Positions 14,454-58,215 of a stretch of 64,000 nt of DNA are shown here, one piece after another; position 1 is the stretch's first letter; every line of letters starts with the position of its first letter. The position numbers were made by a program, and so were the translations under genes. The notes beneath the pieces are model-generated. The model was not told where the DNA came from and ran no database searches. It worked only from the letters and a program-made list of their open reading frames with translations. Source of the DNA: a virus; IMG/VR virus record IMGVR_UViG_3300046461_000454, positions 110,647 to 174,646 of that record; one strand, 5' to 3'.

Positions 14454-14460
14454 GGTGTAG
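14454..14460 (+). promoter_or_regulatory. GGTGTAG element (type I)
   Basis: The sequence ctGGTGTAGct lies in the 52-base gap after the fibre gene, 24 bases before the next ATG. A separate ribosome binding site (gagggag) lies in between. Here the element cannot be the ribosome binding site itself, which favours a promoter role. Confidence 0.5.
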
Positions 14461-14484
14461 CTGTCTGCACAAGAGGGAGATCAG

Positions 14485-15132
14485 ATGCGAAGTGTCGAGA
14501 CCTTACCCAGAGCCCAAGAGCGAGCTCCGGGCTTTGCCGTAAGAGCCGCCTGCCAAGAGACCTTTGGCAAAAACTATATCCGCGGTGATGTCTTCTTCAC
14601 GATGAGAGATGGCGAGACCGGGGTGGTTCAGCTGGAGCGACAGCTTCGCAACCTGGTTGTCCTGGATGCGTCGATCCTTATCGCCCGGCTCATGAAGGAC
14701 AGTCTTGAGCCGCCGCATGGGATTTATGCTCTTGCCGTTGGCACAGGCGACACTGGCTGGTCCCTTCAGAGCCCTCCAGCGGCGACCAATACACAGCGCT
14801 CGCTGTACTCGGAGATCGCTCGCAAGACTTTTGCGGATACCAAGTTCATCGATGGCGACGGTGTCCCGAGTGCCATCCCAACAAACGTGGTCGATTTCAC
14901 GACGACTTTTGCAGAGTCCGAGGCGGTCGGCCCTCTGGTTGAGATGGGGCTCTTGGGCGGCAACATCGACACAAACCTAGCCGTTCGTAAGCCAGTCAGT
15001 CCCTCTAATGGGCAGTACGACCCCACCGTTGATCTGACCCCGCATGACACGCTGATAAACTATTTGACGTTCGCAGTCATCAACAAGCCGGCTACAAGCA
15101 CCCTTAGTATCGTGTGGCGGTTGACCTTCTGA
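14485..15132 (+). CDS. Putative virion/tail protein, unknown family
   Basis: Protein of 215 residues with a good ribosome binding site (agagggagatcag) before the ATG. The middle part has the look of a small beta-rich virion domain (GIYALAVGTGDTGW, then a Thr/Asp-rich stretch, ending in TLSIVWRLTF). Proteins with a similar VGTG..GW..Q core are found next to phage fibre genes, but I cannot name a family. Lies between the repeat-rich fibre and the first of two paralogous large virion proteins. Confidence 0.6.
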   Translation: MRSVETLPRAQERAPGFAVRAACQETFGKNYIRGDVFFTMRDGETGVVQLERQLRNLVVLDASILIARLMKDSLEPPHGIYALAVGTGDTGWSLQSPPAATNTQRSLYSEIARKTFADTKFIDGDGVPSAIPTNVVDFTTTFAESEAVGPLVEMGLLGGNIDTNLAVRKPVSPSNGQYDPTVDLTPHDTLINYLTFAVINKPATSTLSIVWRLTF

Positions 15133-15168
15133 TGGATGGGATGATGAAGACTTACATCAAAGGATATC

Positions 15169-17790
15169 ATGACCGCGGATAAGAACTACGGGCCTGCCGT
15201 TTCTGGGTATCTGGTTCCGGATCAGCACGCATGGGAAACTGTTGTCACTCAGGCTGGCAAGCCCCTCCTGGACATCGAGCTAAACCTCAGTCAGGACATT
15301 GACGGCGGGGCGGCACAAGCGGTTGTGCGGCGCTTGATGCCGTCCGGTTGGTTATCTGATGACTTCCTGACCACGTCGAGCTCGACCGGCGCCATCTTTG
15401 CTCCGATCAACGTGGCCAACACGATCGAGATCCCGCCGTTGTTGGCGCACGTGAACGGCTGGTTTATCCCCATCCAACGCACCAATAGCGCGACTACTGC
15501 CAACCGTGTCAATCTCGGCGCTGGCCCCGGGGGAGGGCAGCAAACCAATCTAGTGATTCTTGAGGTGTGGCGGAGACTGATCCCGGCGTCACCGGCGTCA
15601 CCAGCTCCTGCCAACATGACTGGCAAGAGCCCAACAGGCAGGATTTGGTTCAATGGTAACGTCAAGATCGCTCCTGGAGCTGACGACGCAACCTACAACT
15701 TCGATGACGATATTCTGAACGTCAACGTCGGAGTTGAAACCACGAAACGGGTGCAGATCCAATATCGGTTGCGAGCGATTGCCGATGTGGACGTGTTCAC
15801 TTACCCATCCGGTATCGACGACTTCAACGTGGTGGCCCGCACGGTGCCTCCTAACCCGACGACCCCGGATGGCAGCGCCTATCCTGGGCTCGAACCCAAC
15901 TACACGAATCAATGGGCAAACGGTGATACCGGACTCTGGAGAGCTGGAGATGGCGTCCCGACCAACGGTCTGGGGACCGTTGATGGCTACATGTACGCGA
16001 TCCCGCTATTGGCGGTCTTCCGCCGTAATACCGCGCCCTTCAACCGTGCAACCAATCAGAACGGCGGCGCGGCAAGTCCAGGCACATCTGATCGCCCCGA
16101 TGGTCTGTTCAACAACATCATTGCATCCGCAGACCTACTAGATCTGAGACACGGTGTGTCGCCGACTGGTTGGTCATTGGAAGAGGTTCTTGAGAAGAAC
16201 ACGAACGCGATCCTCGACAATTCGTTGCGCACCGAGATCACTGACAATTTGGCAGGGGGCGGATCTCACGGCACAACGGTATTCGTTGCGAATGAGATAG
16301 GGGGCACTCAGACACCGGCGGTTCCCGCTGCTGAGATTCAGCAATTCGATGCGGTGAGGCGCCGATTCTCCGATCGCTCTATCTATGAGACGGTCACGCT
16401 AAGATACCCGGCTCCCGGTGGAGGTTGGGTCGCTGGTAGCGTGGTGACGATTGGTCCAACGTCTCTGCTTGTGTATCCGTACGCGGCATTCGACTGGAGC
16501 AGCTTAGCGCCAGACGGTTCTTTGTTCTTGGATGTGGTCGAGGCTCACTGGGCGGGTCCTTCGGAGTCACACAAGGCAGCGAATGCAGAGCCGCATATCT
16601 CTATTACGGGGCTTGGGTCGGCGCCTGTTGCTCCTGTGGTCATCACAATCGCCGGCACCGTTGCCCCTCTTGGTCTTACCGACGAGAGTTTGTACGTGAC
16701 GCTGCTGGTAGCGTACCCGCGTGGAGTGGGGTTGACCCATACCCCTGTTGAGACCTATGGGGTTGACAGCTTCGAGCTCACTACCGCGCCGCTGCCTTCT
16801 ACAACACCGATCTTCTGCGATAACGCTGTCTTCGATAATCCTGGGCTCAAAAGCTTCGATGAGCCCCACCGTGAAGTGCAGGTCGAGTATCAGACGCTTG
16901 AACTGACCTATACGCAGGGGAACGCGATAGTCACTAACAAAATGACGCTGCCTGAGCGCGCGATCGAGCTCACCTCGGTCTCGACAGCCCCGGTCGCGTC
17001 GGCAACAGCCGGAGCCTTGGACCCCAGCGGGCGAATCGTTACGTTCAACGTCAACACCCCAGCCACTCCCGTCCAGATCACCGTGAAGTATAAGGCGAGG
17101 CGGCCGATACCGCGGCTGACCACCCCTGCGGTCACCCCGCAGCTGTCAATTTACTTCCGTGCCGCCGCGCCTCAGATGGCCCGGGACGCTATCGCTGGCA
17201 TCAGCCTGACTGTTGTTCCGAAGCTGGTCTCCGGCAAACTGATAAGCCTAACAGCTGGTTCCGGCTCGCAGGGTGAGGCATATCCTTTCCCAACTGCGTA
17301 CCTGCAGACCGGCGGCATCTTTCCGCCCGTGGTCGGTGACTTTGACGGTGAGGCAGAGCTCGCCGCGAGCCCTGAGATCAGCGTCGCCAATTTCGATGCC
17401 TCTACGGGCATGCTCTGCCTGCCCACGTATATTTCAATGGTCGCTAGTCCAGAATCGTTGACGTTCCAGCGAGGCCTTGGGGATATCGACGTCGAGGGCC
17501 GAAGCTACTTCACCTCAGTGCCATTGGGGGCGTATGTGCCCAACGCCTATGCTCAAGACTTGAGCAACTCGGATCGGCACAAGAATATGCTCGCCATTTT
17601 GGCGGAGCTGACGAGTGACACTGAGCCCTTGGGACGTCGCGGACAGCTAGTGATCATCCTACTCATTCGATACGCCCTGTTTGACGAAACAAACGGTGTC
17701 TTTTTTGACAGTGAGAGCGCCACTACGAGTAGCACGACTGCGAGTGTGTTTAGGGTCAAGGGACTTCTTTTGAACAAGCGAGCCAACTAG
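15169..17790 (+). CDS. Large virion protein, paralogue of the gene at 21472
   Basis: Protein of 873 residues. The N-terminal 350 residues align clearly with the protein encoded at 21472: shared stretches include QAGKPLLDIELNL / QQGKPPCDGELNL, HVNGWFIP / NVNGWLIP, the RVQIQYR block, GLWRAGDG, and DLLDLRHGVSPTG / DILDLRHAVNPNG. The C-terminal part is different. It is beta-rich, with Ala/Thr/Pro-rich linkers typical of phage appendages. No catalytic motif is seen. A baseplate-attached fibre or adaptor role is plausible. The start at 15169 has an aaaggatatc site. Confidence 0.7.
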   Translation: MTADKNYGPAVSGYLVPDQHAWETVVTQAGKPLLDIELNLSQDIDGGAAQAVVRRLMPSGWLSDDFLTTSSSTGAIFAPINVANTIEIPPLLAHVNGWFIPIQRTNSATTANRVNLGAGPGGGQQTNLVILEVWRRLIPASPASPAPANMTGKSPTGRIWFNGNVKIAPGADDATYNFDDDILNVNVGVETTKRVQIQYRLRAIADVDVFTYPSGIDDFNVVARTVPPNPTTPDGSAYPGLEPNYTNQWANGDTGLWRAGDGVPTNGLGTVDGYMYAIPLLAVFRRNTAPFNRATNQNGGAASPGTSDRPDGLFNNIIASADLLDLRHGVSPTGWSLEEVLEKNTNAILDNSLRTEITDNLAGGGSHGTTVFVANEIGGTQTPAVPAAEIQQFDAVRRRFSDRSIYETVTLRYPAPGGGWVAGSVVTIGPTSLLVYPYAAFDWSSLAPDGSLFLDVVEAHWAGPSESHKAANAEPHISITGLGSAPVAPVVITIAGTVAPLGLTDESLYVTLLVAYPRGVGLTHTPVETYGVDSFELTTAPLPSTTPIFCDNAVFDNPGLKSFDEPHREVQVEYQTLELTYTQGNAIVTNKMTLPERAIELTSVSTAPVASATAGALDPSGRIVTFNVNTPATPVQITVKYKARRPIPRLTTPAVTPQLSIYFRAAAPQMARDAIAGISLTVVPKLVSGKLISLTAGSGSQGEAYPFPTAYLQTGGIFPPVVGDFDGEAELAASPEISVANFDASTGMLCLPTYISMVASPESLTFQRGLGDIDVEGRSYFTSVPLGAYVPNAYAQDLSNSDRHKNMLAILAELTSDTEPLGRRGQLVIILLIRYALFDETNGVFFDSESATTSSTTASVFRVKGLLLNKRAN

Positions 17791-17824
17791 CGCTAGCCCG
17801 GCAATAGCCTGGAGCCGTTGATAT

Positions 17825-21345: not shown

Positions 21346-21365
21346 GCGAGTGCGGTAGCGCCATC

Positions 21366-21372
21366 GGTGTAG
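21366..21372 (+). promoter_or_regulatory. GGTGTAG element (type I)
   Basis: cGGTGTAG occurs 14 bases before a strong terminator hairpin, 99 bases upstream of the next large gene. A 30-codon open frame begins at 21383 and would overlap the next ATG. Its role here is unclear; it may start a short attenuated transcript. Confidence 0.4.
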
Positions 21373-21471: not shown

Positions 21472-24400
21472 ATGACAACGAACCTTGGTCCAGGGGTGTC
21501 TCGAGTTCTACAATCGGCCGGGACCCAATACGCTGAAACGATCTGGCAACAAGGTAAGCCGCCATGTGATGGCGAACTAAATCTGATGCAGACCTTGGCG
21601 TTGGAGACTGTGCAGTCAGCAGTCCTCCGCGGTACGCCGAGCGGGTTCTTGGGAAATGACACAAACCAGCAGAAGGCCTTCCTGACCAATCCTGCGTGGT
21701 CCAACTACTTCAAATTCGGCCCTCAGCGCACCGGCGAAACGGCCCCGATCATGTGGGCCAACGTCAATGGCTGGCTGATCCCTGTGGCGGGCACCGGGAC
21801 AGGCTCCCCTCCAGGCTCTCCGAATGAGGTCGACTACTCGAACATCATCGCTCTGGATCCACCGCCTGGGGCGGCTGGCGACTTCCGCATCGATTTCGTC
21901 TTTCTCGAGGTGTGGAAGGCGCGCATTCAGCCGAATCCTTCCGCGACCAATAAGCCATCGGCGAGTGCCGTCTACCGGTTCGGTAACGTCGAGGGTGGCT
22001 TCAGCTATCTGCCTGACGACTTGGTTGATCCGGCGATCGGCTTTGAGACCAACCAGCGCGTCCAGATTCAGTACCGCGTGCGTGTCGTGAAGGGCCTTGT
22101 CGGGCTCACCGGCAATCCGGACGGGTTCGATCCCGTGGTTGTCAAGGCACAGGGCGCAGCAGCTACCCCGACGAGTTACACGTTCACGAATATGCGCCAA
22201 GCGCTCGGGGACCCGGGCTTGTGGCGCGCTGGTGACGGGACGCAAAACCTCTTGGGCTCGGTGGACGGCTACTCCTATGCTGTCCCGATCTCGGTTGTCT
22301 TTCGACGCAACGGTGTCAGCTGGAACGGCAACCCATCCCAGAATCTTAACGGCGGGCTCAATCGCAATCCCACGGCGGTCAATCGCACGGGGATCAAGAC
22401 ATTTCTGCCGGCGCCTCCGCTGGCCAGCCCCGTCACGGCTACGGCTACGGCACTGCCTTTAGCGGGCTCCACTAACGTTGCGCTCCTGCCCCTGCCTGCG
22501 AATCCCGCGACGCCGGTGCTCATCCAAGTCGACGATGAGCTCATGTTCTATCAGTCGATCACGGGCACCACGATCAACATCGCGCCGGGCACACGGGGCT
22601 CCAACGGCACGGTCGCAGAGGCGCACAAGGCCGGCGCGCTTGTTCGTGTGGTGTCTGGTCGCCCGGATGGCCTGTTCTCGGACCAGATCGCCAATACGGA
22701 TATCCTGGATCTGCGTCACGCGGTAAACCCGAATGGCTTCGACTACGAGGCCCTGCTCAAAGGCAGCCTAGACAAGCTCCTGCGTGGACAGCTGCGCGCC
22801 AACTGGAAGCTCACCGGCACGGGTCCCCGCGGCGCCTACGTGTCTTACCAAGATGCTCTGACATCGGCGGCCATTTCCTTGGGTGTTACGAAGCTTGATG
22901 CTCCGGACAACATCCGAATGGTGTTCAGCGACGCGGCGACCATTCAGCCGGTCGAGCTCATCTGTCATCCGAGCGAGCTCGCCGTAACAACTGGTGCTGC
23001 GGAGATCAACGAGCGCTGGTCGTTGCAGCTCACGGTCAACATGACCAGCCAGACGCCCGCAGGTCAATTCGGGCCGAACAACGTCATTGTGCTCCCGGTG
23101 AATCAGCTCAAAAACGGGCTCCCGGCGGGCGCTACGGATCAGGTGCGGTGGTTGAACGATGGGGTCGAGGGCGCCGTACGTCTCCGCTTTGAAGGCGAGA
23201 ATGCTGACGTCTCTCCGACCCTCTACACTGTCACGCCGGCATCCCCGGCACCGAACGAGGATCTGGTCATCACGCTAGGTGACGCATTCCCGCTTCAGCC
23301 CAATTTGGCGCCGTCCCCCAGCCTACTGCATATTCGAGCTCACATCGTCTATGGCGCGGGGCGTGGTCTTGCGCGTCGCCCGGAGGCTATCCACTCCGTT
23401 TCCTACATCACTCCATCGTCGGACCTCCTCACGCAATCGGCGGGAGTTCCAGCCAGCAACAAGGGAGCTCGGGTAGGTTGGGCTCCGCTGTGGGGTAAGT
23501 ATCGAAACGCGGCCTTCAATGGACTGCTGCCAGTCACCGCGGAGACGTATGCGGACCTCGGGAGCAAGACCATGGTGGTCACGCCGTTCCGCCGTATCGA
23601 TTTTCCGAAGCTCTTGACGATCGATGGTCGATCAGCGAACCCAAAGCAAGACCCAAAAGCCGGCACCGTATCAACGGGTACGCTTCCCGGAATTAATAGC
23701 GTCACGATCACCGCGAGCGCGACCAATGTGGTTGCGGGGGATGCACTCCTGATTCCGGAGCCCAGCGCGGGCGCTGGTCGATATACGGTTACTGCGGCCG
23801 TTGGTACGACGATCACGGTAGACCGGCCCATACGCGGTCCTTCAGGAGCTGTCAGCTTCACGATTCATGAGTCTCAGGGGCTGATGCCGCTTTTCGATAA
23901 GGACGTGAATCCAATTCCTAAGTGGGAACGGACAGACCCCCTCGGGTTGTTCTGCTGCACCAAAGTTGGTAACGCCTCGGGACCGGGATCTATCGGTGAT
24001 GCCTACGAAAGCATCTACGTTTCGTTGCCGCGGCATCTCGTTCCGGCATGGGGCGAAATTCATGTGCCGATGTTGGCGATCGAGACTGCCACCTTTCCGA
24101 CGGGGATCAACTACATGGTCCGGACCAGCACTCTGGACACTCCCCCAGAGGGGGAAGCCAACTATGTAGCCTACCACGGCAGTGGTGGTTCAAACGAATA
24201 CTCGGTGTTTAGTCAGAAGACGCCCGCGACAGTCTCGTCTACGTCGATCCCGATCACCTATAACAAGGCAGAACTCGGCAATGAAGGTAGTCAGTGGGCC
24301 GGTATTCGCTTCTTCAATGACCCTCGTGGTCTCGGTCGTCAAGGGCTGGAGTTCCCCCCATTCTATGGCATAGCGCGGATCTTTGGCGTCTATCAGGTTG

Positions 24401-25869
24401 TGGACTACAGCGTGAATGGCAGTCCGTTCACGAACGCACGCCAGAGTGGCGGCACTGGCACAGCGGTCAATTTGCTACGGAAATCGATGGGGCCACAAGA
24501 CGGTCCTCCGATGTGGATTGAGACCGATGCGGACGGCGACTCGACGTTCATCCTGAACGCCAAGGCCATCGATATCTCGAAGGCTCCGGCTCCCCTCGCT
24601 AACTTTGCGGATGGGTCTTACGTGGTTGAGGCTGTGGTGTTCGGCTTTGATCGCGGGTCATTCGACTTGACTAAGGAGTTCCGCCTTGTCTTGACGAGGC
24701 CTCTTAACACCAACGGCTGGGCTAATGTCGGGGGTGCTGGGGTAAACACGACCCCCGCAGGGCGCGCGAGCAACATCAACAAATGGGTAGAAGGCCTCGC
24801 GGGCCTCTTGCCAGGGCCAGCGCAGCAAAGCGACCAGATCCTAGTGAACTACTCGCGGACCCCGTATCAGGGGGACGCATGGGGCTCACAAACCAACAAC
24901 ACGGACATCCCTTACGCGCCTGGGCCGTTGCGGTCTGAGACCGCCTACCAACTGAGCCACACGAAGCTCAACACCTCCGGTCTTACTCGTCCGAACCAGA
25001 AGGTCCTTGAGGTTTTGGCGGCGACCAGCTTCTCGACCGACCTGGGCACGGGGCGCTATTCGGGAGACGCCGTCGTAGATCCGTTGGACTTCAAGAATGT
25101 TGGTTTTGAAGACCAGAGCGCCTACCCACCGGACATTGCTACCGCGGATCGCCCAAAGGTCATGGCGGCCAATTTCGCCGCGGCTGGAACGGATATAACG
25201 AGCATCGGTTCCGAGTATCTCGGGTGCACGGAGCGTTTGCCGCTCGGCGCTTTGTTTCGTGACAAGGACTTCCGTGGTCAGGCTTTTACTACCCACTCGT
25301 TAGCGCCGCTCGTCTATGCGGATGTCGTAGGTGACGGACCCGCAGTCGGTTTGGCATCACCGAACAATACGGAGCAGAACGAGATCCCGCTCAACACGGC
25401 CAACTCCGGCGTGGGCTCACCGGGCGATATCTTGGTGCACGTCGACGGCGAGCAGTTCAGCACCTCGCTTTTGACGAACTATCGCGTTACTCGCGGCGGG
25501 TCCGTGTTCACGGCCAGTGGGACATGTCTGGGCGGCGCGCTCTCCATGCAAAACATATCGGCATTTCCCCAGACCAATCATGTGAACGCTGTGCATGGGC
25601 GCGCGATGTTGGTGCGAAATGCCGTCACTAATGTCGGGCTCAACGAGGTTTCGGCGGGTGATGAGCTCATGATGCTCATCGTAACCAGCGTCCAGCACCG
25701 CCCGCCCCAACTCAATCTGGCCCCGTCCAACATCACCATCGGTACGAACGGCACGGGTGAAGGATATTCAGCGGCTGACCTCTATCGTATCGAGGGGCAC
25801 CCGCTTGTGCGGAACAACGTTCATATGCAAGTGGACCCAGCGTCGATCGTATTGGCGCGAGGGGGCTGA
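21472..25869 (+). CDS. Very large virion protein, paralogue of the gene at 15169
   Basis: Protein of 1465 residues. Its N-terminal third aligns with the 873-residue protein at 15169 (shared GKP..D.ELNL.Q, VNGW.IP, RVQIQYR, GLWRAGDG, RPDGLF and DLRH motifs). A short insertion at about residues 320-385 has a separate small beta domain. The C-terminal two thirds are beta-rich with no enzyme motif. A purine-rich site (gaaggattacatcaa) precedes the ATG. Probably a baseplate-attached appendage or decoration; the duplication suggests two related fibres or adaptors on one tail. Confidence 0.7.
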   Translation: MTTNLGPGVSRVLQSAGTQYAETIWQQGKPPCDGELNLMQTLALETVQSAVLRGTPSGFLGNDTNQQKAFLTNPAWSNYFKFGPQRTGETAPIMWANVNGWLIPVAGTGTGSPPGSPNEVDYSNIIALDPPPGAAGDFRIDFVFLEVWKARIQPNPSATNKPSASAVYRFGNVEGGFSYLPDDLVDPAIGFETNQRVQIQYRVRVVKGLVGLTGNPDGFDPVVVKAQGAAATPTSYTFTNMRQALGDPGLWRAGDGTQNLLGSVDGYSYAVPISVVFRRNGVSWNGNPSQNLNGGLNRNPTAVNRTGIKTFLPAPPLASPVTATATALPLAGSTNVALLPLPANPATPVLIQVDDELMFYQSITGTTINIAPGTRGSNGTVAEAHKAGALVRVVSGRPDGLFSDQIANTDILDLRHAVNPNGFDYEALLKGSLDKLLRGQLRANWKLTGTGPRGAYVSYQDALTSAAISLGVTKLDAPDNIRMVFSDAATIQPVELICHPSELAVTTGAAEINERWSLQLTVNMTSQTPAGQFGPNNVIVLPVNQLKNGLPAGATDQVRWLNDGVEGAVRLRFEGENADVSPTLYTVTPASPAPNEDLVITLGDAFPLQPNLAPSPSLLHIRAHIVYGAGRGLARRPEAIHSVSYITPSSDLLTQSAGVPASNKGARVGWAPLWGKYRNAAFNGLLPVTAETYADLGSKTMVVTPFRRIDFPKLLTIDGRSANPKQDPKAGTVSTGTLPGINSVTITASATNVVAGDALLIPEPSAGAGRYTVTAAVGTTITVDRPIRGPSGAVSFTIHESQGLMPLFDKDVNPIPKWERTDPLGLFCCTKVGNASGPGSIGDAYESIYVSLPRHLVPAWGEIHVPMLAIETATFPTGINYMVRTSTLDTPPEGEANYVAYHGSGGSNEYSVFSQKTPATVSSTSIPITYNKAELGNEGSQWAGIRFFNDPRGLGRQGLEFPPFYGIARIFGVYQVVDYSVNGSPFTNARQSGGTGTAVNLLRKSMGPQDGPPMWIETDADGDSTFILNAKAIDISKAPAPLANFADGSYVVEAVVFGFDRGSFDLTKEFRLVLTRPLNTNGWANVGGAGVNTTPAGRASNINKWVEGLAGLLPGPAQQSDQILVNYSRTPYQGDAWGSQTNNTDIPYAPGPLRSETAYQLSHTKLNTSGLTRPNQKVLEVLAATSFSTDLGTGRYSGDAVVDPLDFKNVGFEDQSAYPPDIATADRPKVMAANFAAAGTDITSIGSEYLGCTERLPLGALFRDKDFRGQAFTTHSLAPLVYADVVGDGPAVGLASPNNTEQNEIPLNTANSGVGSPGDILVHVDGEQFSTSLLTNYRVTRGGSVFTASGTCLGGALSMQNISAFPQTNHVNAVHGRAMLVRNAVTNVGLNEVSAGDELMMLIVTSVQHRPPQLNLAPSNITIGTNGTGEGYSAADLYRIEGHPLVRNNVHMQVDPASIVLARGG

Positions 25870-25878
25870 TGGGTTGGT

Positions 25879-25885
25879 GGTGTAG
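25879..25885 (+). promoter_or_regulatory. GGTGTAG element (type I)
   Basis: tGGTGTAG with nine bases to the ATG of the SNF2-type helicase. No purine-rich ribosome binding site lies between element and start (ctgcccacg). It opens the replication block after the end of the virion genes. Confidence 0.6.
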
Positions 25886-25894: not shown

Positions 25895-27667
25895 ATGGCA
25901 GCCTCTGAAGACACCACCTCCAAGCACGCCAAGGTCTATGAAACCCTCAAAAAGGTCCGCGCTAGCAAAGACGTAACGCTCAAGCCAATCGGGATGCTGC
26001 GCCAGGAGATCCAAGTCCTGGATGGCACGCTGCAGCCACTCTCGATCAGGTATTACCAGGTCCAGGCAATCTTCCACCTGCTGAGTATGAAGCGGATGGT
26101 GCTCGGCGATGCTACGGGCACAGGCAAGACTCTCGTCTTGATCGCATCCCTTTGTTACACGTGGGAAAAAGAGCCCGACAACAAGGTCATTGTGGTGTGC
26201 CCGAAGTCGGCACTTCGCCAGTGGTGTTCCGAGATCGAGAAGTTCACCACGGGCATCACCACATACGTTGTCGACGGGACGCCAAACGAACGCAAGCAAA
26301 CGTATCTAGAGTTCGCCCTGCACAAGGGACCCACGAAGCCGGTGATGCTGATGGGGTACGCGCCCCTTGTGCGAGACTGGCATCAAGGGGCAAAGCCCTC
26401 ACCTTTGATCAAAGGCAAGCCAGACCCGAAGGTGCCACCTGTCCGTGGGACCCTCGACGGGATCACGGCTCGCATCCCGCACCTCACCATTGCCTTCGAT
26501 GAAGCGACGGCATTCAAGAGCGACCGCACCAAGACATGGCAGGTCTGCAAAGAGCTGTCCGACCGAGCGAGTCGTTGTTATGGGCTAACCGCCACGCTGC
26601 TGAAGAACAACCTGATCGAAGGGTTCTCGATCTACAAGGTGATCTACTCGCAGGTCTTCACGACCAAGTCGGCCTTCCTTCGCGAGTACTGCGTCACGAG
26701 ACTGCAGAGCGTAGCCGGGTCACGGAAGATCCCGATCGTCGTAGGCTACAAGAACCTGCAGGCCTTCCGCGACCGGATTGATCCATTCTTCTTGGGCCGA
26801 CCCAAGCACGAGATCTCGAGCGAGCTGCCGACGCTCATCACTCGGGAGGTCGCGTGCGAGCTCTCGGCCGCTGAGGACGCCAAGTACAGCGAGGCCTTGT
26901 CCGGCATGCTCGCCTTGGGCGACGGCAATCTCAAGGACTACTCTGACAACAAGACCCTTGTCGCGCTGATTTACTGTCAAAAGACCGTCGATTCGATGTC
27001 TCTGCTCAAGTACGACGCGGGGGACTTGATCGAGCTCGACGTTGTCAGCGGCGAGGAAACGGAAGTCCGCGCCTTGGGCGCCAAGGAGCAAGCCTTGCTC
27101 GACTTGCTGACTGAAGAGTTCAGCGATGAGAAAGTCATCGTCTACTGCCGCTTCACGTCTCTGATCACTCGCCTGCGCGACATCTGCAAAAAGGCCGGGA
27201 TCGAGAGTGTAGAGGTGAGCGGCAAGGTCACGGATACGAAGAGCAACCCGGCGCGCAAAAAAGCACAGGATGCGTTTCAGGACCTGAAATCCAGTGTACG
27301 GGTGATCTTCATCTCCGACGCAGGCTCGGAGGCGATCAACCTCCAGGCGGCGTCAGCCATGATCTTCTACAACGCCCCGTGGAGTTGGGGCAACTACGTG
27401 CAGCTGCTTGGCCGGCCAATTCGTATCGGCTCGCCGCACCAACACGTGATCGCGCTGCACCTTGTAGCCGAGCGCCCACGCAGCACGGAGAAGCAGCGCA
27501 AAACCATCGACCACTACACGCTCGAGATTCTTCAGAAGAAAAAGGACCTCATAGACAAGGTCCTTGGTGAGTCTGCGGTCGGAGCCTTGGACTTTGACCG
27601 CAGCTCGAACTTCACGGTTGACCTAGCCAACAGCCTTAGGAGCCGAGCCAATGACTCAAGTCAATAG
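25895..27667 (+). CDS. SNF2/DEAD-like superfamily 2 helicase
   Basis: Protein of 590 residues with both RecA-like lobes. Lobe 1: Q-like RYYQVQAI near residue 52, Walker A GDATGTGKT at 71-79, Walker B DEAT with D202, motif III-like GLTATL. Lobe 2: VIVYCRF, then SDAGSEAINLQAAS (motif V) and QLLGRPIRIGS (motif VI with both arginines). The spacing fits SNF2-family ATPases found in phages, which remodel or unwind DNA at forks or during recombination. It is the first gene of the replication block and overlaps the next gene by 17 bases. The start is fixed by the GGTGTAG element nine bases upstream. Confidence 0.85.
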   Translation: MAASEDTTSKHAKVYETLKKVRASKDVTLKPIGMLRQEIQVLDGTLQPLSIRYYQVQAIFHLLSMKRMVLGDATGTGKTLVLIASLCYTWEKEPDNKVIVVCPKSALRQWCSEIEKFTTGITTYVVDGTPNERKQTYLEFALHKGPTKPVMLMGYAPLVRDWHQGAKPSPLIKGKPDPKVPPVRGTLDGITARIPHLTIAFDEATAFKSDRTKTWQVCKELSDRASRCYGLTATLLKNNLIEGFSIYKVIYSQVFTTKSAFLREYCVTRLQSVAGSRKIPIVVGYKNLQAFRDRIDPFFLGRPKHEISSELPTLITREVACELSAAEDAKYSEALSGMLALGDGNLKDYSDNKTLVALIYCQKTVDSMSLLKYDAGDLIELDVVSGEETEVRALGAKEQALLDLLTEEFSDEKVIVYCRFTSLITRLRDICKKAGIESVEVSGKVTDTKSNPARKKAQDAFQDLKSSVRVIFISDAGSEAINLQAASAMIFYNAPWSWGNYVQLLGRPIRIGSPHQHVIALHLVAERPRSTEKQRKTIDHYTLEILQKKKDLIDKVLGESAVGALDFDRSSNFTVDLANSLRSRANDSSQ

Positions 27668-34606: not shown

Positions 34607-34612
34607 GCCGTT

Positions 34613-34619
34613 GGTGTAG
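34613..34619 (+). promoter_or_regulatory. GGTGTAG element (type I)
   Basis: tGGTGTAG lies seven bases after the stop of the zinc-knuckle gene and 43 bases before the ATG of the DUF2997-like gene, which has its own weak site (agggaagc). It marks the start of a new unit. Confidence 0.5.
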
Positions 34620-35266: not shown

Positions 35267-35268
35267 CT

Positions 35269-35275
35269 GGTGTAA
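35269..35275 (+). promoter_or_regulatory. GGTGTAA element (type I)
   Basis: tGGTGTAA just after a terminator, nine bases before the ATG at 35285. No ribosome binding site lies between (ttggccggc). Confidence 0.6.
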
Positions 35276-38295: not shown

Positions 38296-38296
38296 C

Positions 38297-38303
38297 GGTG
38301 TAG
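38297..38303 (+). promoter_or_regulatory. GGTGTAG element (type I)
   Basis: cGGTGTAG with nine bases to the GTG at 38313, and no ribosome binding site between (agccggcgc). Confidence 0.6.
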
Positions 38304-41523: not shown

Positions 41524-41527
41524 GCTC

Positions 41528-41534
41528 GGTGTAG
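41528..41534 (+). promoter_or_regulatory. GGTGTAG element (type I)
   Basis: cGGTGTAG with eight bases to the ATG of clpX at 41543. Confidence 0.6.
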
Positions 41535-41542: not shown

Positions 41543-42799
41543 ATGCCGGCTCGTTCAGAGAAACGCTGCAATTTCTGCAATCGCCCGCGCAACGAGGTTA
41601 AGAAGCTCATCTCTGCGGACGCTGACAGCGCCTGCATTTGCGATCGGTGCGTCGCCAATATCGGCGATGTCTTATCGAAGTCCATCGCGGCCGACAAAGT
41701 TGACGACAAGCCTCTCAAGAAGCCCCGCGAGATAGCGGCCTGCATCTCAGAGACCGTGATCAGCCAGGACGCTGCCAAGCAGGAAGTGGCGATTGCCGTC
41801 TATGAGCACTATCGGCGGCGAGAGATCCTACGGGCGGGCGGCTCTCTCATGATTGACGGTGAGCCCGTGGAGGTAGAGAAAAGCAACATTCTGATGCTGG
41901 GTCCATCGGGCTCGGGAAAGACAGCGATCGCACGCGCGGTCGCCAAGATGATTGACGTCCCGTTCTACGTCGGCGATGCGACCCGGCTAACCCAGGCGGG
42001 CTACGTCGGGGATGATGTCGAGTCCTTGCTCCAGGGGTTGATGGCGGCTGCGGGCAATGATGTTGAGCGCGCTCAGTGGGGGATCATCTTCATCGACGAA
42101 ATTGACAAGCTGGCTCGCAAGTCGGGTCGCAACGCTTCTGGCTATCGTGATGTCTCCGGCGAAGGGGTGCAGCAGTCCCTCTTGAAGCTGATCGAGGGCT
42201 CGGTGGTCCCGATTCCGCGAGGGCGCGCTCCCAACTCCGGCGCCCGCGAGAGGGATATGATCGACACCACGAACATCCTCTTCATCTGCGCCGGCTCTTT
42301 TGCAGGGATCGAGGATGTGATCGCGCAGCGACTCAACAAGGGCGCCCGTCTTGGGTTTGGCAACGAGCTGCGGGCCGAATACAGCAAGACCGAGCTCTAC
42401 CGTGAGGTGACGGTCGAGGATGTCCAAGAGTTCGGACTCATCCCCGAGTTAGTTGGGCGGCTTCCGGTGTTGACATCTACGCTAGAGCTCACGGAGGAAG
42501 AGCTGATCGAGATCCTCACGACCCCGCGGAGCTCGTTCTGTAAGCAGTTCCGAGCGCTGTACCTCTTGGATGGCATTGATCTCAGATTCGAGCCTGATGC
42601 GCTACGCGAGCTCGCCCGTCTTGCAAAGTTGCAATCCACGGGTGCACGGGCGCTGCGGACCATCCTCAAACGGGTACTTAAGCCCTATTCCTACGAAGCC
42701 CCCAATGACTCGGATATCATGGAGATCCACATCACAGCGGAAGCGGTTCAAACGCCCGGCAGTGGTATCGTAGTGCGCAGTCCCATCGCGACGGTATGA
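41543..42799 (+). CDS. clpX: ATP-dependent protease ATPase subunit ClpX
   Basis: AAA+ unfoldase of 418 residues, close to the bacterial length. N-terminal zinc-binding domain with C9, C12 and C33, C36. Walker A GPSGSGKT (120-127), pore loop GYVG (153-156), Walker B IIFIDEID (181-188), arginine finger region PELVGRLP (R306), sensor 2 GARALR (366-371). An LGFG segment at 270-273 sits where the ClpP-binding IGF loop lies in host ClpX, so it may still dock on host ClpP. No clpP is in the window. The start at 41543 fits the GGTGTAG spacing; an upstream extension would overlap the zincin gene. Confidence 0.9.
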   Translation: MPARSEKRCNFCNRPRNEVKKLISADADSACICDRCVANIGDVLSKSIAADKVDDKPLKKPREIAACISETVISQDAAKQEVAIAVYEHYRRREILRAGGSLMIDGEPVEVEKSNILMLGPSGSGKTAIARAVAKMIDVPFYVGDATRLTQAGYVGDDVESLLQGLMAAAGNDVERAQWGIIFIDEIDKLARKSGRNASGYRDVSGEGVQQSLLKLIEGSVVPIPRGRAPNSGARERDMIDTTNILFICAGSFAGIEDVIAQRLNKGARLGFGNELRAEYSKTELYREVTVEDVQEFGLIPELVGRLPVLTSTLELTEEELIEILTTPRSSFCKQFRALYLLDGIDLRFEPDALRELARLAKLQSTGARALRTILKRVLKPYSYEAPNDSDIMEIHITAEAVQTPGSGIVVRSPIATV

Positions 42800-43408: not shown

Positions 43409-43425
43409 CTCCGGTCATTGCTTCC

Positions 43426-43432
43426 GGTGTAG
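43426..43432 (+). promoter_or_regulatory. GGTGTAG element (type I)
   Basis: cGGTGTAG with eight bases to the ATG at 43441 (aaggtccc between; it includes an aagg that could serve as a weak ribosome binding site). Confidence 0.6.
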
Positions 43433-43440: not shown

Positions 43441-44274
43441 ATGTCGAAACCTCCTAGGAGCGGCGTTGTAGAGACGGTCCCTTACAGCCTCTCTCGTTAT
43501 ACGGATCTTCCTGCGGCGAAGTGGAGTTGGTTTGAGAGCTGCCTAGCCGCTGAGCAGATGATAGCGTTCGATTCGAAGACTGGCGCCCCTAGCGTCTGGT
43601 CCCTTGCCCCCGAGGAAACCCTGGCGCTTGTCTTCTGGACGAAAAACCCGACCAACCTGATCGCTAGTCAACTCAGGCTGAAGGGATACAACGTTGTGAT
43701 TCACATGACAGCGACTGGTTGGCGCGAGGTCGAAAAGGGGACGCCCACGATCAATGAAGCTGGGCGGCTGCTGGTTGAGGCCGTGAAGGCCTTCGGTAAC
43801 GTCCACTGGCGATTCAGCCCGATCCCGCTGCTGTCTACCCAGATGGTTCTCGAGCGGTTCAGGTACCTACTGGAGTACGCCCACCGGGCCGGTCGCCGCG
43901 AGGTCTTTGTCTCATTTCTTCAGCCGAACGATTCAATCCCAGAGACGCGCAGTTGCTCCGAGCGCTTCGAGCTCCTGAATCGTCTGGCAGAGATTGCGGC
44001 GCCGGCTGGCATTCAGGTGATGTTGTGCAAGGACGACCGATCTTTTGATGATTGGCAGGGGGCGCAGTTTCTCCTTGCCCCATGTGTGCCGGCTTCTGAT
44101 TTCTCACGTGGCGGCCTAGCGCTTGAGTCGTGCGAGTGTGTCGCGATGGTCGACCCCTTCACGTTGAACGAGTCCTGCCTCTATGGTTGCCAGTACTGCT
44201 ATGCCGGCGACAAGTCTCTGGCACCTAAGAAGCGGAACACAAATCGCGGGTTGACCGTGATTCGGGGACATTGA
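43441..44274 (+). CDS. DUF1848-like protein with radical-SAM-type Cys cluster
   Basis: Protein of 277 residues. The stretch LVFWTKNPTNL and the C-terminal CLYGCQYCYAG fit DUF1848, whose members carry a CxxxCxxC cluster at the C-terminus that may bind an iron-sulphur cluster. FRFSPIP-type features (here HWRFSPIPLL) and VSFLQP in the middle also fit. DUF1848 is related to radical SAM enzymes of the spore photoproduct lyase kind, but its substrate is not known. A role in DNA or nucleotide chemistry is a guess. Confidence 0.7.
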   Translation: MSKPPRSGVVETVPYSLSRYTDLPAAKWSWFESCLAAEQMIAFDSKTGAPSVWSLAPEETLALVFWTKNPTNLIASQLRLKGYNVVIHMTATGWREVEKGTPTINEAGRLLVEAVKAFGNVHWRFSPIPLLSTQMVLERFRYLLEYAHRAGRREVFVSFLQPNDSIPETRSCSERFELLNRLAEIAAPAGIQVMLCKDDRSFDDWQGAQFLLAPCVPASDFSRGGLALESCECVAMVDPFTLNESCLYGCQYCYAGDKSLAPKKRNTNRGLTVIRGH

Positions 44275-46848: not shown

Positions 46849-46856
46849 GTGGCCGC

Positions 46857-46863
46857 GGTGTAT
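46857..46863 (+). promoter_or_regulatory. GGTGTAT element (type I)
   Basis: cGGTGTAT directly after a terminator, with eight bases to the GTG at 46872. Confidence 0.6.
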
Positions 46864-46871: not shown

Positions 46872-47396
46872 GTGGATGCAGGAGACCTCATTCAGTGGCG
46901 CGGGCTACTCTGGCTGGTCCGCAAGGTAGACCGCGAGCTCGTGACCGCCGTTGTCGAGTCGGCGGATCGCCGCACCGAGGTACTGCCGTCGGACGCTGAC
47001 CAGACCGGCGCCTGTGAGGTCTGGTGCAGCCCCCCGCGAGAGTGGCCGTCGGCTGCATTGCCATTTTGTAGTCTCACGCGTCTTGGCCACGTCTGGCGAG
47101 CCAGAACGGAACTGACGCGGCTGCAAGACTGGGTGAAGCTGGACGATTTTCAGATCGGTGGCGCGCTCTACCTCAACCCCGAGCTGCGTCTGGGGTACGG
47201 GGACCGCCTCACGGTCGTGTATCTGGGCTCGCGAGATAGGCGGACCGCTCGCTCTGTGGAGATCCCACGGCACTTTAGCCCGCTGCCGACAAGGCACCCG
47301 ACCGCTGGGGCGCCGACCGCTGGGGCGCCGAGCGGTGCTGCACTTGCCGCACCAAAGAGCTCGACCTTGTTTCGATTGCTCAAGGATCCTGAATGA
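46872..47396 (+). CDS. Unknown protein with small beta-rich N-terminus
   Basis: Protein of 174 residues. GTG 46872 is preferred over TTG 46863 because of the element spacing. The N-terminus (DAGDLIQWRGLLWLVRKV) looks like a small SH3-like beta barrel. A Gly/Ala/Pro linker at about 145-155 is made by an exact 15-base duplication. No family recognised. It overlaps the next gene by four bases. Confidence 0.55.
   Translation: MDAGDLIQWRGLLWLVRKVDRELVTAVVESADRRTEVLPSDADQTGACEVWCSPPREWPSAALPFCSLTRLGHVWRARTELTRLQDWVKLDDFQIGGALYLNPELRLGYGDRLTVVYLGSRDRRTARSVEIPRHFSPLPTRHPTAGAPTAGAPSGAALAAPKSSTLFRLLKDPE
47301..47330 (+). repeat. Two exact tandem copies of a 15-base unit
   Basis: accgctggggcgccg occurs twice in direct contact, encoding TAGAP twice. 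Such a unit can change copy number by slippage without shifting the frame. Confidence 0.85.
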
Positions 47397-49895: not shown

Positions 49896-49897
49896 TC

Positions 49898-49904
49898 GGT
49901 GTAG
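49898..49904 (+). promoter_or_regulatory. GGTGTAG element (type I)
   Basis: cGGTGTAG three bases after the macro gene stop, 23 bases before the next GTG. A strong AAGGAGG site lies between, so the element is separate from ribosome binding here. Confidence 0.55.
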
Positions 49905-51273: not shown

Positions 51274-52371
51274 CTACCCCATTCGCTCTATGATGGTCAG
51301 GCACAGTTCGTCGAGCTTCTTTCGGTCAGGCTGCCTAGGGAGCTTGGAAGACTTCACGAGCTCGCCGAGCTCGGCATCCTGGCGGTCGGAGTATTCCAGC
51401 AGTTGCTCGTATGTCCAGCAGCCATCGCGAATCTCGAGTAGCTCCTGGGCGTCGGGGCGACGCACGCGGACCACACCTTCGGTCAAGAGCTCCCGGCACA
51501 TCTTGGTTAGCCGAACGAGGTGCATCGCGTGTTTCGAGTCGTACCCGTACTTCTCTTCAAGGGCGGCGCGGGCAGGGTTCCGGTTCGTTTTCCAGTCCTG
51601 GTACTGCTGCCACTCTTTCAATCGGCCCGTGTACTGGCGCTCGAGGTCTAGCAGCCGGATGAAATTCTCATCGAGCCCAATCGCGCGACTCGCGGCTAGC
51701 CAAACCTTGGCGTCGAGCTCATCCCAGCTCCACTGGGTGATCTCGGTGAGCCGGCGCATGAATTCGTCCTGGACCGCCTGCCTTGTGGCGGGGTCCAGGT
51801 GCTCCATTTCATGCCAGCTCCACTGATCGACTTGCTTGGTAACAGCGGCTTGAGCTGCCGCGAGTTGATCGGCGGGGATCACGGTGCGTTCAGGGAGCCC
51901 AAACTCCTGCCGCGTTGGCGCCGCCTTTGGCGGGGACTTCAGCCATCTGTGGTGGCCTTGTATCCGGCGCAGCTGCGCCCTCGCGTAACCGCTGAAGGTG
52001 TGCTTGGCCTTCTGGCTAAGGAACGCATCGCGATTTTCGAGCAGAACCTCCATCACCGGGTGCACCACGAGATGGTCGCTCGGGTCGGTGAAAAGGATCT
52101 CGAGGGCGTTGGGATTGGCGTCGGCCGCGAGCTTGACGAACTTTCGTAGGTCGAAAATAGTGAGGTCTACCGGCTCGTTTTGTACCGCCTGCTCGAACGT
52201 CTCGCTGATCCCGAGGTAATAGTGAATCGGAGCGACGGTGATCCCCCGGAGGTCCAGGTCGCTTGTTGGCAACGAGGTGCCGTAAGCGTGCGACCCGTGC
52301 CGCGTCAGATAGATGGTCCGCTCCGGGAGCCACTTGAGTTGCCCCGTGTATTGATTCCAATCGAAATTCAC
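51274..52371 (-). CDS. YcgL-type nucleotidyltransferase
   Basis: Protein of 365 residues from GTG at 52371. GSHAYGTSLPTSDLDLRGI (G26-I44) is the polymerase-beta-type nucleotidyltransferase motif with D38 and D40 as metal ligands; a third Asp may be in VDLTIFDL. The helical C-terminal region (residues about 220-330) fits the predicted nucleotidyltransferases of the YcgL group found in phages. These may modify RNA ends or small molecules. The start is set eight bases after a GGTGTAG element. Confidence 0.8.
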   Translation of the reverse strand: MNFDWNQYTGQLKWLPERTIYLTRHGSHAYGTSLPTSDLDLRGITVAPIHYYLGISETFEQAVQNEPVDLTIFDLRKFVKLAADANPNALEILFTDPSDHLVVHPVMEVLLENRDAFLSQKAKHTFSGYARAQLRRIQGHHRWLKSPPKAAPTRQEFGLPERTVIPADQLAAAQAAVTKQVDQWSWHEMEHLDPATRQAVQDEFMRRLTEITQWSWDELDAKVWLAASRAIGLDENFIRLLDLERQYTGRLKEWQQYQDWKTNRNPARAALEEKYGYDSKHAMHLVRLTKMCRELLTEGVVRVRRPDAQELLEIRDGCWTYEQLLEYSDRQDAELGELVKSSKLPRQPDRKKLDELCLTIIERMG

Positions 52372-52379: not shown

Positions 52380-52386
52380 CTACACC
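52380..52386 (-). promoter_or_regulatory. GGTGTAG element (type I), minus strand
   Basis: The minus strand reads tGGTGTAG followed by ccccgtga and the GTG start at 52371: eight bases between. Confidence 0.6.
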
Positions 52387-52396
52387 ATGGGGTCGG

Positions 52397-53050
52397 CTAC
52401 GAGCTCGCCAAGATCTTCGTGATGTTTCTGCGGGCCTGATCTTCGAGCCTGGTTCGGAAGAACTCCGACAGGAAGATCGACTTTTTTGCTAGCAAGCCAC
52501 CAAGGAAAGCTTTGCGTCCCAGCGCCACTTGCTCGGGCGTGTACTTGAGACGCAGCTCGGCGACCACATTCATGTTGTTGTACACGACCGTTTCCCAGTG
52601 ATATTGCCCAAGGCTCGCGATGTCGGCGTCGAGAAGGACGCAGCCTGCCAGTGGCGCGTCACCGGCGCCAAGTTTGCCGTGCTGCGCGGTGAGCATGATG
52701 AGCTGGCCAATCTGGGCCAACGATTCCTCGGAAACTACCCCCTTCAACTCGTTGCGCATGAGCTCGCAGCTCTGCTGTTCGTTGCTAGGGCTCCCCGCGG
52801 CTGTGTAGACCACATCATGGAAGAGCGCCGCGAGGCGGAGCTCTTGATGCGTGAATGGGTGGAGGGCCTCTTCTGTGTAGTCCTCACAAGCCCGGTTGAT
52901 CCAGCTCACTACCTCGACCGCGTGATCGAAGTCGTGATAATAGCGACCATCCCCCTCGTAGTGTTGACGTACGTTTTCTAGGGATTCTGGGCGTACGATT
53001 CCGTCCAACGTCCCCAAGGCCAAGTCGGTTTCTAATTGGGTGTAGAGCAT
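52397..53050 (-). CDS. HD-domain phosphohydrolase
   Basis: Protein of 217 residues. Metal ligands: H39 and H43 in RYYHDFDHA, HD pair H78-D79 in ALFHDVVY, and a later Asp in LLDADIASLG. This order fits the predicted metal-dependent HD hydrolases (COG4339-like). They act on nucleotides; the exact substrate is unknown. Its start lies eight bases from a GGTGTAT element. With the neighbouring nucleotidyltransferase it forms a minus-strand pair, each with its own element. Confidence 0.8.
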   Translation of the reverse strand: MLYTQLETDLALGTLDGIVRPESLENVRQHYEGDGRYYHDFDHAVEVVSWINRACEDYTEEALHPFTHQELRLAALFHDVVYTAAGSPSNEQQSCELMRNELKGVVSEESLAQIGQLIMLTAQHGKLGAGDAPLAGCVLLDADIASLGQYHWETVVYNNMNVVAELRLKYTPEQVALGRKAFLGGLLAKKSIFLSEFFRTRLEDQARRNITKILASS

Positions 53051-53058: not shown

Positions 53059-53065
53059 ATACACC
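53059..53065 (-). promoter_or_regulatory. GGTGTAT element (type I), minus strand
   Basis: The minus strand reads tGGTGTAT, then gatccggc, then the ATG at 53050. A plus-strand GGTGTAG lies at 53039-53045, so the two form an inverted pair across the start codon. Confidence 0.6.
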
Positions 53066-53107
53066 AGCGCTCAGATCCTTTGAGCGGGGCTCTGCGGTGT
53101 CCGGCGT

Positions 53108-54317: not shown

Positions 54318-54380
54318 TTAGCTGCCAATCGGCGTCGTGCGCCCCGGTCAATTCCGAGGGCTTTTACGTGGAGCTGAGCC

Positions 54381-54387
54381 GGTGTAG
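54381..54387 (+). promoter_or_regulatory. GGTGTAG element (type I)
   Basis: cGGTGTAG with nine bases (aacgagctc) to the ATG at 54397. Confidence 0.6.
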
Positions 54388-54396: not shown

Positions 54397-54600
54397 ATGC
54401 CAATAGACATCGCGACGGCCCTACTCATTGTCGACGACGACCTCCCTGACGGGGCATATTTCGCGATGCTCGGTGAATTGACCGGGTTACCACCTGACGC
54501 AGTGGCAGAGGCTTTGGTGGAGCGTGCCGAACGGATGGAGTCGCTTGCGCCTACGCCGCAAGCGAAGAAGCGCAAGCGTTCGAAGAAGCGCAAGCGATGA
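54397..54600 (+). CDS. Small protein with basic repeat tail
   Basis: Protein of 67 residues. The first 45 residues form an acidic, helical domain (IATALLIVDDDLPDGAYF). The end, KKRKRSKKRKR, comes from a direct repeat of gcgaagaagcgcaagcg-type units. The opposite charges of the two halves suggest contact with nucleic acid or an acidic partner. No family recognised. The start is supported by the GGTGTAG element. Confidence 0.55.
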   Translation: MPIDIATALLIVDDDLPDGAYFAMLGELTGLPPDAVAEALVERAERMESLAPTPQAKKRKRSKKRKR

Positions 54601-55743: not shown

Positions 55744-56220
55744 TCAAGGGCCTGTGTAACCCGCTGGGCGGTTACGACTCGCCTCATCAAGGGGCATCCA
55801 ATGATAGGCCCCGGCGTCGCACGGAAGCGCCTCAAGATCGCCGAGAGAGGCCCAAGTCGCCCACGCAAATCGACCCGCGGCCCACATCTCTTGACTCCCA
55901 TCAAAGTCCGGTTCGCGCAGCCGTAGCATCAGATACCCGGTCGTCATCGTAGGGGGTTGCGCGGGAGGCGGCTCGCACCCGGATTTTTGGGTCGGCCCTC
56001 CGCAACCACAGCCAGGTCCCGCGGCTGTTTGATAGACCAGGCCGGCATTGTCTAGCTTCTCTAGGGCAGCGTTGACTCGCGCTTGCGTTTGGTGGTCGGC
56101 CCCGCAATCAAACGGCCCGACGGGCAGCCTTGGGTCCAGGCAATCTACCCAGAAGCTCCAGTTGCATCCTGGGTAAGCGCATCTAACTTCTACGGACCCG
56201 AGCGGCCGAATGTCATCCAT
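55744..56220 (-). CDS. Unknown protein with Cys motifs
   Basis: Protein of 158 residues from ATG at 56220, set by a GGTGTAA element eight bases upstream; longer versions on this strand would run through the repeated leader. It has CAYPGCNWSFW near residue 13, a later DCGADH and a Cys/Gly-rich GCGCGGPTQKSGC linker, suggesting a small zinc-binding N-terminal domain. The C-terminal half contains a Trp/Ala-rich helix. No family recognised. Confidence 0.55.
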   Translation of the reverse strand: MDDIRPLGSVEVRCAYPGCNWSFWVDCLDPRLPVGPFDCGADHQTQARVNAALEKLDNAGLVYQTAAGPGCGCGGPTQKSGCEPPPAQPPTMTTGYLMLRLREPDFDGSQEMWAAGRFAWATWASLGDLEALPCDAGAYHWMPLDEASRNRPAGYTGP

Positions 56221-56228: not shown

Positions 56229-56235
56229 TTACACC
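56229..56235 (-). promoter_or_regulatory. GGTGTAA element (type I), minus strand
   Basis: The minus strand reads cGGTGTAA, then caacccac, then the ATG at 56220: eight bases between. Confidence 0.6.
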
Positions 56236-56268
56236 GCTGGGGGCAACGCTAGCGTCGTTGTTTCTGCG

Positions 56269-56448: not shown

Positions 56449-56493
56449 CAGTGCGCGACTAGCACCGACACCAGACTTGGCGGCGAGCAATAC

Positions 56494-56928: not shown

Positions 56929-56931
56929 GTC

Positions 56932-57324: not shown

Positions 57325-57359
57325 CCTGCTCTCAGGTAGGACTTCTCCAGGATTCTAGG

Positions 57360-57402: not shown

Positions 57403-57417
57403 GGCACCAGCCGGTGA

Positions 57418-57864: not shown

Positions 57865-57870
57865 CCGTGA

Positions 57871-57899
57871 GAGACAATCGACAACGGTCGAACTTCAAG
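57871..57899 (-). promoter_or_regulatory. Type II leader (CTTGAAGTT ... TGTCGATT-GTCT), copy 1
   Basis: On the minus strand: CTTGAAGTT, 15 bases ending TGTCGATT, then GTCTC, then six bases to the GTG. The pattern is shared with 59117 (+) and 61077 (minus). Confidence 0.6.
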
Positions 57900-57924
57900 G
57901 CAAGCACTGAGCTCCGCGCATGCT

Positions 57925-58137
57925 CTAGGCCGTTTTGCGGACGTGCGGATCGACGATGCTCGCTCGCTTGACTAGATGCATGAGGGCGGTGTTCTTGGTC
58001 GAACTATCCTTGCCGTGACGCGCGAGGTCGCCGAGCTCATCCGCAGTCAAGACCTCCCAGTCGATTGGCTTGCGTCTCGGCGGGACGTTTTCCTCGATAA
58101 GGAGCGGCTTGGTCGTACTAGCTCGAGAATCGTACAT
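57925..58137 (-). CDS. Small unknown protein
   Basis: Protein of 70 residues on the minus strand, basic N-terminus and a short helical region (WEVLTADELGDLARHGKDSS). A sigma70-like promoter (TTGACA, 18 bases, TATCGA) lies upstream. No family recognised. Confidence 0.5.
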   Translation of the reverse strand: MYDSRASTTKPLLIEENVPPRRKPIDWEVLTADELGDLARHGKDSSTKNTALMHLVKRASIVDPHVRKTA

Positions 58138-58147
58138 TGTATAACTC

Positions 58148-58177
58148 TCGATACTTCCAAGACAGGAAGAATGTCAA
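58148..58177 (-). promoter_or_regulatory. Sigma70-like promoter
   Basis: On the minus strand TTGACA (58177-58172) and TATCGA (58153-58148) are 18 bases apart, upstream of the gene starting at 58137. The -35 box is a perfect consensus match; the -10 box matches weakly. Confidence 0.4.
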
Positions 58178-58182
58178 GGTCT

Positions 58183-58215
58183 GGTGTAGGCGAGGCTCAT
58201 GCCTACGGCTACACC
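58183..58215. promoter_or_regulatory. Inverted pair of GGTGTAG elements
   Basis: GGTGTAG at 58183-58189 (+) and its complement at 58209-58215 (minus GGTGTAG) face each other around a shared CATG. Each has an ATG at 8-9 bases, but the frames that follow are only 42 (+) and 8 (minus) codons. It may be an operator-like pair or a promoter for a very short RNA. Confidence 0.4.

Follow-up and report, generated by a model that had tools for sequence, protein, structure and literature searches.

A YGGTGTAR element close to start codons in a family of huge phages as a putative -10-only promoter core for leaderless mRNAs

A 64-kb stretch of viral DNA (positions 110,647 to 174,646 of IMG/VR record IMGVR_UViG_3300046461_000454, here called the window), which forms the terminal part of a 174,646-base virus contig (174.6 kb), repeatedly carries the short element YGGTGTAD a few nucleotides (nt) before start codons. 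An initial annotation of the window had interpreted this element as a promoter core. Analysis of the window, the remainder of the contig and a set of related phage contigs indicates that the element, in the form YGGTGTAR, is very probably the core of a phage-specific promoter which is confined to the -10 region and would give rise to leaderless mRNAs. This reading of the sequences is well supported, but not proven.

Enrichment, spacing and conservation of the element

For this analysis the rest of the 174,646-base contig was added to the window and genes were called with a simple home-made Markov caller, while relatives, IMG/VR contigs of 6-417 kb, were reached via their DNA polymerase and helicase. 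Coverage was 400 of 417 kb for contig G004 and 240 of 398 kb for G002; G003 (255 kb) shares 98-98.7% identity with the window's contig and continues past its end. The main family counts comprise 1728 called starts in nine related phage contigs and are partly non-independent, because G007 and G011 are closely related.

GGTGTA was the most over-represented upstream six-base word in the 174,646-base contig (13 vs. 0.5) and ranked first or second among the upstream-enriched words in all contigs for which 66 or more genes were called. Across the family it was found 138 times at 8-11 nt before starts, with 1.9 occurrences expected, and its one-base variants reached merely 0-7 occurrences each in the same interval. 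The longer form YGGTGTAD occurred 109 times at 8-13 nt compared to 0.88 times in dinucleotide-shuffled upstream 40-mers (maximum of 5 in 50 shuffles). The distance between the TA of the element and the start peaked at 9 nt (65 cases) and 10 nt (53 cases), and the same peak was observed in G002 and G012. Within the window we found 18 copies of YGGTGTAD versus 5.35 +/- 2.22 expected from dinucleotide shuffles, a number reached in 0 of 100 shuffles. The enrichment anticipated by the initial annotation was therefore present in window and family alike, much more strongly in the latter, together with a sharp peak before starts. GGTGTA preceded no start in G010 (helicase 42%, GC 64%), among only 57 genes.

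At a spacing of 10 nt the TAG of the element is in frame with the start, and a gene caller could place starts directly behind an in-frame TAG or TAA. The chance that the peak is such an artefact is negligible: it is rejected because the TAG is out of frame in the 9-nt class, the largest one, and in addition copies with TAT and TAC exist, other TAG words do not produce a comparable peak and the starts agree across orthologues.

The flanks of 153 near copies were strongly biased, with a pyrimidine before the core in 147 and a purine after it in 130, while no preference for T was apparent at the sixth position. No conserved position was detected between -45 and -2 upstream of the core in these copies, which points to recognition confined to the -10 region with no -35 element. 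The Y/R flank was largely kept by far intergenic copies, which also occurred more often than expected (66 vs. 11 at 20-49 nt), and was much weaker in copies within coding sequences (CDS). At 8-13 nt, 120 copies were in sense and 2 in antisense orientation. This bias bears on an alternative in which the element is the operator of a phage regulator acting near promoters and not the promoter core. A few inverted pairs, e.g. TACACC-N2-GGTGTA and TACACC-N7-GGTGTA, would fit such a role, but they are rare and without a dominant spacing (the commonest, 7 bp, in 4 cases), which led us to reject a palindromic operator; since the typical copy is single, strand-specific and linked to a start codon, an operator of any kind appears extremely improbable.

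A divergent upstream neighbor was present for 35% of the genes with the element versus 14%, and in some back-to-back pairs the cores were separated by just 2-7 bp, so that any -35 box would fall in the start region of the opposite gene. Many of the targets were replication-type or small genes of unknown function, and the conserved structural block contained few copies.

Conservation was most complete for the helicase gene, whose orthologues were preceded by the element in nine of nine phages although the flanking DNA had diverged. Copies were likewise found before the AAA ATPase, ClpX-like, 100-amino-acid (aa) and 283-aa genes in most phages, again with differing flanks. For individual genes of the window the element was kept before the AAA ATPase gene in G001, G007, G011, G005 and G009 (absent in G006 and G004), before the ClpX-like gene in G001, G007, G011 and G004, and before the DUF1848 gene in G007, G011 and G004.

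All 16 copies listed in the initial annotation were recovered in the window, although its plus-strand coordinates mark the first G, one base past the Y. The copies, with the best-conserved target gene, are as follows.

14453..14460, plus strand: far copy, ATG at +25 (14485, 215 aa); short leader with the Shine-Dalgarno (SD) sequence GAGGGAG
21365..21372, plus strand: far copy without assigned role; the tail-protein gene 21472-25869 follows after about 100 nt
25878..25885, plus strand: core, 9 nt before the ATG of the helicase gene 25895-27667 (590 aa)
25895..27667, plus strand: helicase gene (phrog_62), best-conserved target gene of the element
34612..34619, plus strand: far copy, 43 nt before the ATG at 34663 (58 aa); SD-like TAGGGAAG; plausible
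35268..35275, plus strand: core, 9 nt before the ATG of the AAA ATPase gene 35285-36835 (516 aa)
38296..38303, plus strand: core, 9 nt before the GTG of the NT5C-like nucleotidase gene 38313-38870 (185 aa)
41527..41534, plus strand: core, 8 nt before the ATG of the ClpX-like gene 41543-42799 (418 aa)
43425..43432, plus strand: core, 8 nt before the ATG of the DUF1848 gene 43441-44274 (277 aa)
46856..46863, plus strand: core, 8 nt before the GTG of gene 46872-47396 (174 aa)
49897..49904, plus strand: far copy, GTG at +24 (49928, 322 aa); leader with SD AAAGGAGG
52380..52387, minus strand: core, 8 nt before the GTG of the RlaP-like gene 51274-52371 (365 aa)
53059..53066, minus strand: core, 8 nt before the ATG of gene 52397-53050 (217 aa)
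54380..54387, plus strand: core, 9 nt before the ATG of the small gene 54397-54600 (67 aa)
56229..56236, minus strand: core, 8 nt before the ATG of gene 55744-56220 (158 aa)
58182..58189, plus strand: uncertain core copy; ATG after 9 nt, open reading frame (ORF) of just 42 codons
58209..58216, minus strand: core copy with unsupported start; ATG 8 nt away, stop after 8 codons

Ten of the twelve copies described as lying directly before starts precede credible ORFs, while those at 58183 (plus) and 58209 (minus) are doubtful. Of the four far copies, three of which the initial annotation had credited with a ribosome site of their own, those at 14454 and 49898 are clear cases of such a site and the one at 34613 is plausible, with 21366 left unassigned. 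Two additional copies at 48209 and 63656 may be due to chance, because the former lies within a CDS and the latter coincides with a CDS stop. At 63656-63663 the TAG of the element is the stop codon of gene 62962-63663; at G000:69727-69734 it is likewise a gene's stop, with a gene beginning 7 nt later. At 58182-58216 two YGGTGTAG copies face one another and overlap each other's putative start, both without a long ORF.

Register against ribosome sites and the predicted RNA start

GGTG is complementary to the CACC of the conserved 3' tail of the 16S rRNA. The element could consequently act in translation initiation, either as an offset SD sequence or through another ribosome contact, and its usual position at 9-10 nt before starts would be compatible with such a role. 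The register of the element differs, however, from that of SD words, since GGAGG peaked at 4-7 nt and GGTGAT/AGGTGA at 2-4 nt before starts, while the GGTG of the element ends 11-12 nt before the start. At the position of the element GGTGAT and GGTGAA were not enriched and nearly absent, whereas the TA was almost invariant even though UA is not complementary to the 16S tail.

SD frequencies pointed in the same direction. An SD four-base word at -9 to -4 was present in 8.6% of the genes whose element lies at 9-10 nt, compared to 19.6% of genes without it and 28.8% of those with the element at 20-40 nt (near vs. far, p=0.002); random six-base stretches contained such a word in 7.2%, a background level close to that of the near genes. 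In the wider interval from -12 to -4, SD words were found for 59.6% of the far and 39.3% of the element-less genes (p=0.005). Whether an SD sequence is present thus depends on distance and not on the element itself, a pattern compatible with transcription beginning about 10 nt past the TA but not with a ribosome contact. No SD excess was observed with the element 41-100 nt away (7.5%), hence chance, or small genes missed by the caller, may account for many of these copies. Together with the SD sequences that follow the enriched far copies and the preference for divergent starts, these results make a translation element quite improbable, and an offset SD sequence was rejected on the register and the SD test.

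If the RNA begins at the start codon, the peak at 9-10 nt places the TA at about -11/-12, the position of a -10 element. Register, SD test, divergent starts and this placement all support the earlier interpretation of the element as a promoter core for putatively leaderless mRNAs. A pyrimidine was found at -1 in 81 of 121 cases compared to 657 of 1211 (p=0.007). In the proposed mechanism the YGGTGTAR core would constitute a -10-only (extended -10), phage-specific promoter at which RNA polymerase, guided by a sigma-like specificity factor, opens the DNA at the TA. Transcription would begin about 9-11 bases past the TA, usually at the start codon or no more than one or two bases away from it, and the resulting mRNA would have neither a leader nor an SD site; the anatomy is seen directly, while the RNA 5' end is what we infer from it. 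An element located 20-50 bases upstream would instead yield a short leader bearing an SD sequence.

Related promoter classes and candidate recognizers

A second class was observed at some genes in G004, G005, G007 and G011, in which a degenerate GGTGTAGTAC/GGGGTAGACC is accompanied by a -35-like CTAGAGTTT or CTTTAGATT about 17 bp upstream. This combination of CTAGAGTTT/CTTTAGATT and TA is a predicted -35/-10 arrangement. In LR745208, a 485-kb phage that is a distant relative (helicase 40% identical), the variant (R)GYGTAA occurred 36 times at 7-10 nt before starts, with about 0.5 expected, and an SD sequence was present in 26%. The same phage carries a FliA/sigma28-like bipartite motif, TAAA-N15-(G/A)CCGATAg, at approximately 35-39 genes (L155-L170, L191-L199), mostly at a distance of 13-21 nt from the start; SD sequences follow it in 69%, compared to 35% in other genes. 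LR745208 thus appears to divide its genes into leaderless and leadered ones in the same way, using a variant element. Another distant relative, the Acidobacteriota (Tunturiibacter) phage Tunturi_5 (PP885688), in which GGTGTA was not enriched before starts, has its own bipartite AATAATC-N19-TGGGTATTA located 6 nt upstream of some starts and 12-26 nt upstream of others; the longer-spaced copies often show an SD-like stretch.

The initial annotation placed the recognizing factor outside the window, and consistent with this, two sigma-like candidates are encoded elsewhere in the same phage. The first, a region-2 protein of 302-321 aa, was present in G002, G003, G004, G005 and G012, the latter from the same metagenome as G001. 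TIGR02937 (NCBIfam sigma70-ECF) was the top match of all five intact proteins, always sub-threshold. In three proteins the best stretch was N-terminal and covered profile positions 3-49, while in the other two it was C-terminal and covered positions 48-116; these stretches flank an insert of about 120 aa. PF04542 gave a sub-threshold match in the three region-2 proteins scanned intact. With the insert removed, Pfam Sigma70_r2 aligned over nearly its full length in five of five, but since this join was chosen after the weak matches had been seen, the scan of the intact sequences is the better evidence. The region-2 profile retrieved no sigma match among PDB sequences, and a direct profile comparison with the sigma factor of Tunturi_5 was not significant. 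G001, G006, G007, G009 and G011 are without the region-2 protein, which is weak evidence as they are possibly fragments.

The second candidate, 208 aa long, consists of two sigma-region-4 repeats and matched TIGR02937 at 5e-13, above the model cut-off. It was found in G000, G003, G004, G005, G012 and LR745208 and is about 75% conserved across the family.

G000:14154-14780 and L040:3955-4581: tandem region-4 protein; two homologues in LR745208

The link between these sigma-like proteins and the element is one of co-occurrence only, and both are candidates. It is close to an even call that the recognizer is phage-encoded, i.e. the split region-2 and/or the tandem region-4 protein working with the host core RNA polymerase. 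Alternatively, the same promoter and its leaderless mRNA could be read by a host sigma factor, FliA/sigma28-like or another alternative one, which is plausible though on balance not expected. An 8-bp extended -10 element is similar in layout to sigma28-type recognition, and LR745208 combines its FliA-like class with no detectable region-2 protein. On the other hand, the longest family contigs all encode the sigma-like proteins, and a pattern-based scan returned no cellular homologue of the region-2 protein. Bacterial genomes, searched with the helicase and the region-2 protein in order to find the host, gave no homologue of either. As a wider proposal for this huge-phage lineage, a dedicated split sigma (region 2 with the insert plus tandem region 4) that reads YGGTGTAR and drives much of the gene expression, leaderless by design and beside leadered SD-dependent expression, appears rather doubtful.

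Several points weigh against a -10-only promoter for leaderless mRNAs and its proposed recognizer. The called starts were computed by the home-made caller without curation, the GGTG can pair with the CACC of the 16S tail, the pyrimidine preference at -1 is modest, and a minority of copies is spaced as far as 13-16 nt, so that some mRNAs would carry a few leader bases. The region-2 protein was identified by sub-threshold scores and had an AlphaFold pLDDT of 45 (3 and 5 sequences), and LR745208 has a variant element with no detectable region-2 homologue, which weakens the region-2 assignment and counts against this protein as the sole recognizer.

Comparison with known systems and significance

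The late promoters of T4, which are served by the sigma factor gp55 and the co-activator gp33, are about 8 bp long and consist of the -10 region only, like an extended -10, and are recognized by a sigma-domain-2 protein lacking a normal region 4 together with a separate region-4-like partner (PMC2988020). The element resembles them as an approximately 8-bp putative phage promoter at -10 with a candidate region-2 protein and a separate region-4 candidate. In contrast to T4, the sequence is YGGTGTAR, the RNA is apparently leaderless, the candidate region-2 protein has the insert of about 120 aa and its candidate partner two region-4 repeats, with no sequence homology shown.

In Deinococcus-Thermus a TANNNT -10 motif adjoins the start codon and leads to leaderless mRNA with no need for a -35 element; the leaderless fraction exists alongside SD-led genes, and the motif is read by the host housekeeping sigma (PMC12340547). 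The YGGTGTAR element shares the position of a -10 element a few bases before the ORF, with its peak 9-10 nt after the TA, but does not conform to TANNNT, has a strict GGTG before the TA and occurs in phages.

The late promoters of phiKZ (TATG) and AR9 (AACA-N6-TA/G) are read by phage multisubunit RNA polymerases, and AR9 transcripts have 5' untranslated regions of 26-491 nt (PMC5312081). Short, jumbo-phage-specific promoters at many genes are common to these systems and the one proposed here; unlike in phiKZ and AR9, catalytic-motif searches found no RNA polymerase in the GGTGTA phages. The cellular-type motif NADFDGD was not found, and the search for a T7-type enzyme (PF00940) was without a working control and gives no verdict. 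The 1465-aa protein encoded at 21472-25869, considered as an RNA polymerase for its conserved DADGD, was rejected as such since it matches tail-protein families and no polymerase. Tunturi_5, which encodes an ordinary ECF sigma factor (gp211), also has a promoter-like element near starts, with some transcripts apparently leaderless, but this element is bipartite and lies 6 nt before the start. No paper linking GGTGTA with phage and promoter was found among the open-licence papers searched.

We also considered tRNA genes as non-coding targets and rejected them, as the element lay 10-12 nt upstream in two of 134, too few cases. ARAGORN called a tRNA-Pyl at G001:45239 and G007:134711, the sole tRNA on each contig, and the G001 copy has GGTGTA 12 nt upstream; the called tRNA-Pyl could be an amber-suppressor tRNA. 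Large arrays with 38-52 tRNAs per contig are located at G003:200265-230915, G005:224455-247748 and G004:64058-93812, and several GGTGTA copies directly follow an apparent tRNA 3' end and precede a small gene.

Such a precise start-proximal signal would improve the calling of starts and small genes in scarcely annotated phages with contigs of up to 417 kb. The element would represent a new promoter class tied to leaderless translation in phages, for which two unusual sigma-like proteins can be named as candidate recognizers. With related layouts but different sequences in LR745208 and Tunturi_5, the co-evolution of phage sigma factors and their promoters becomes testable.

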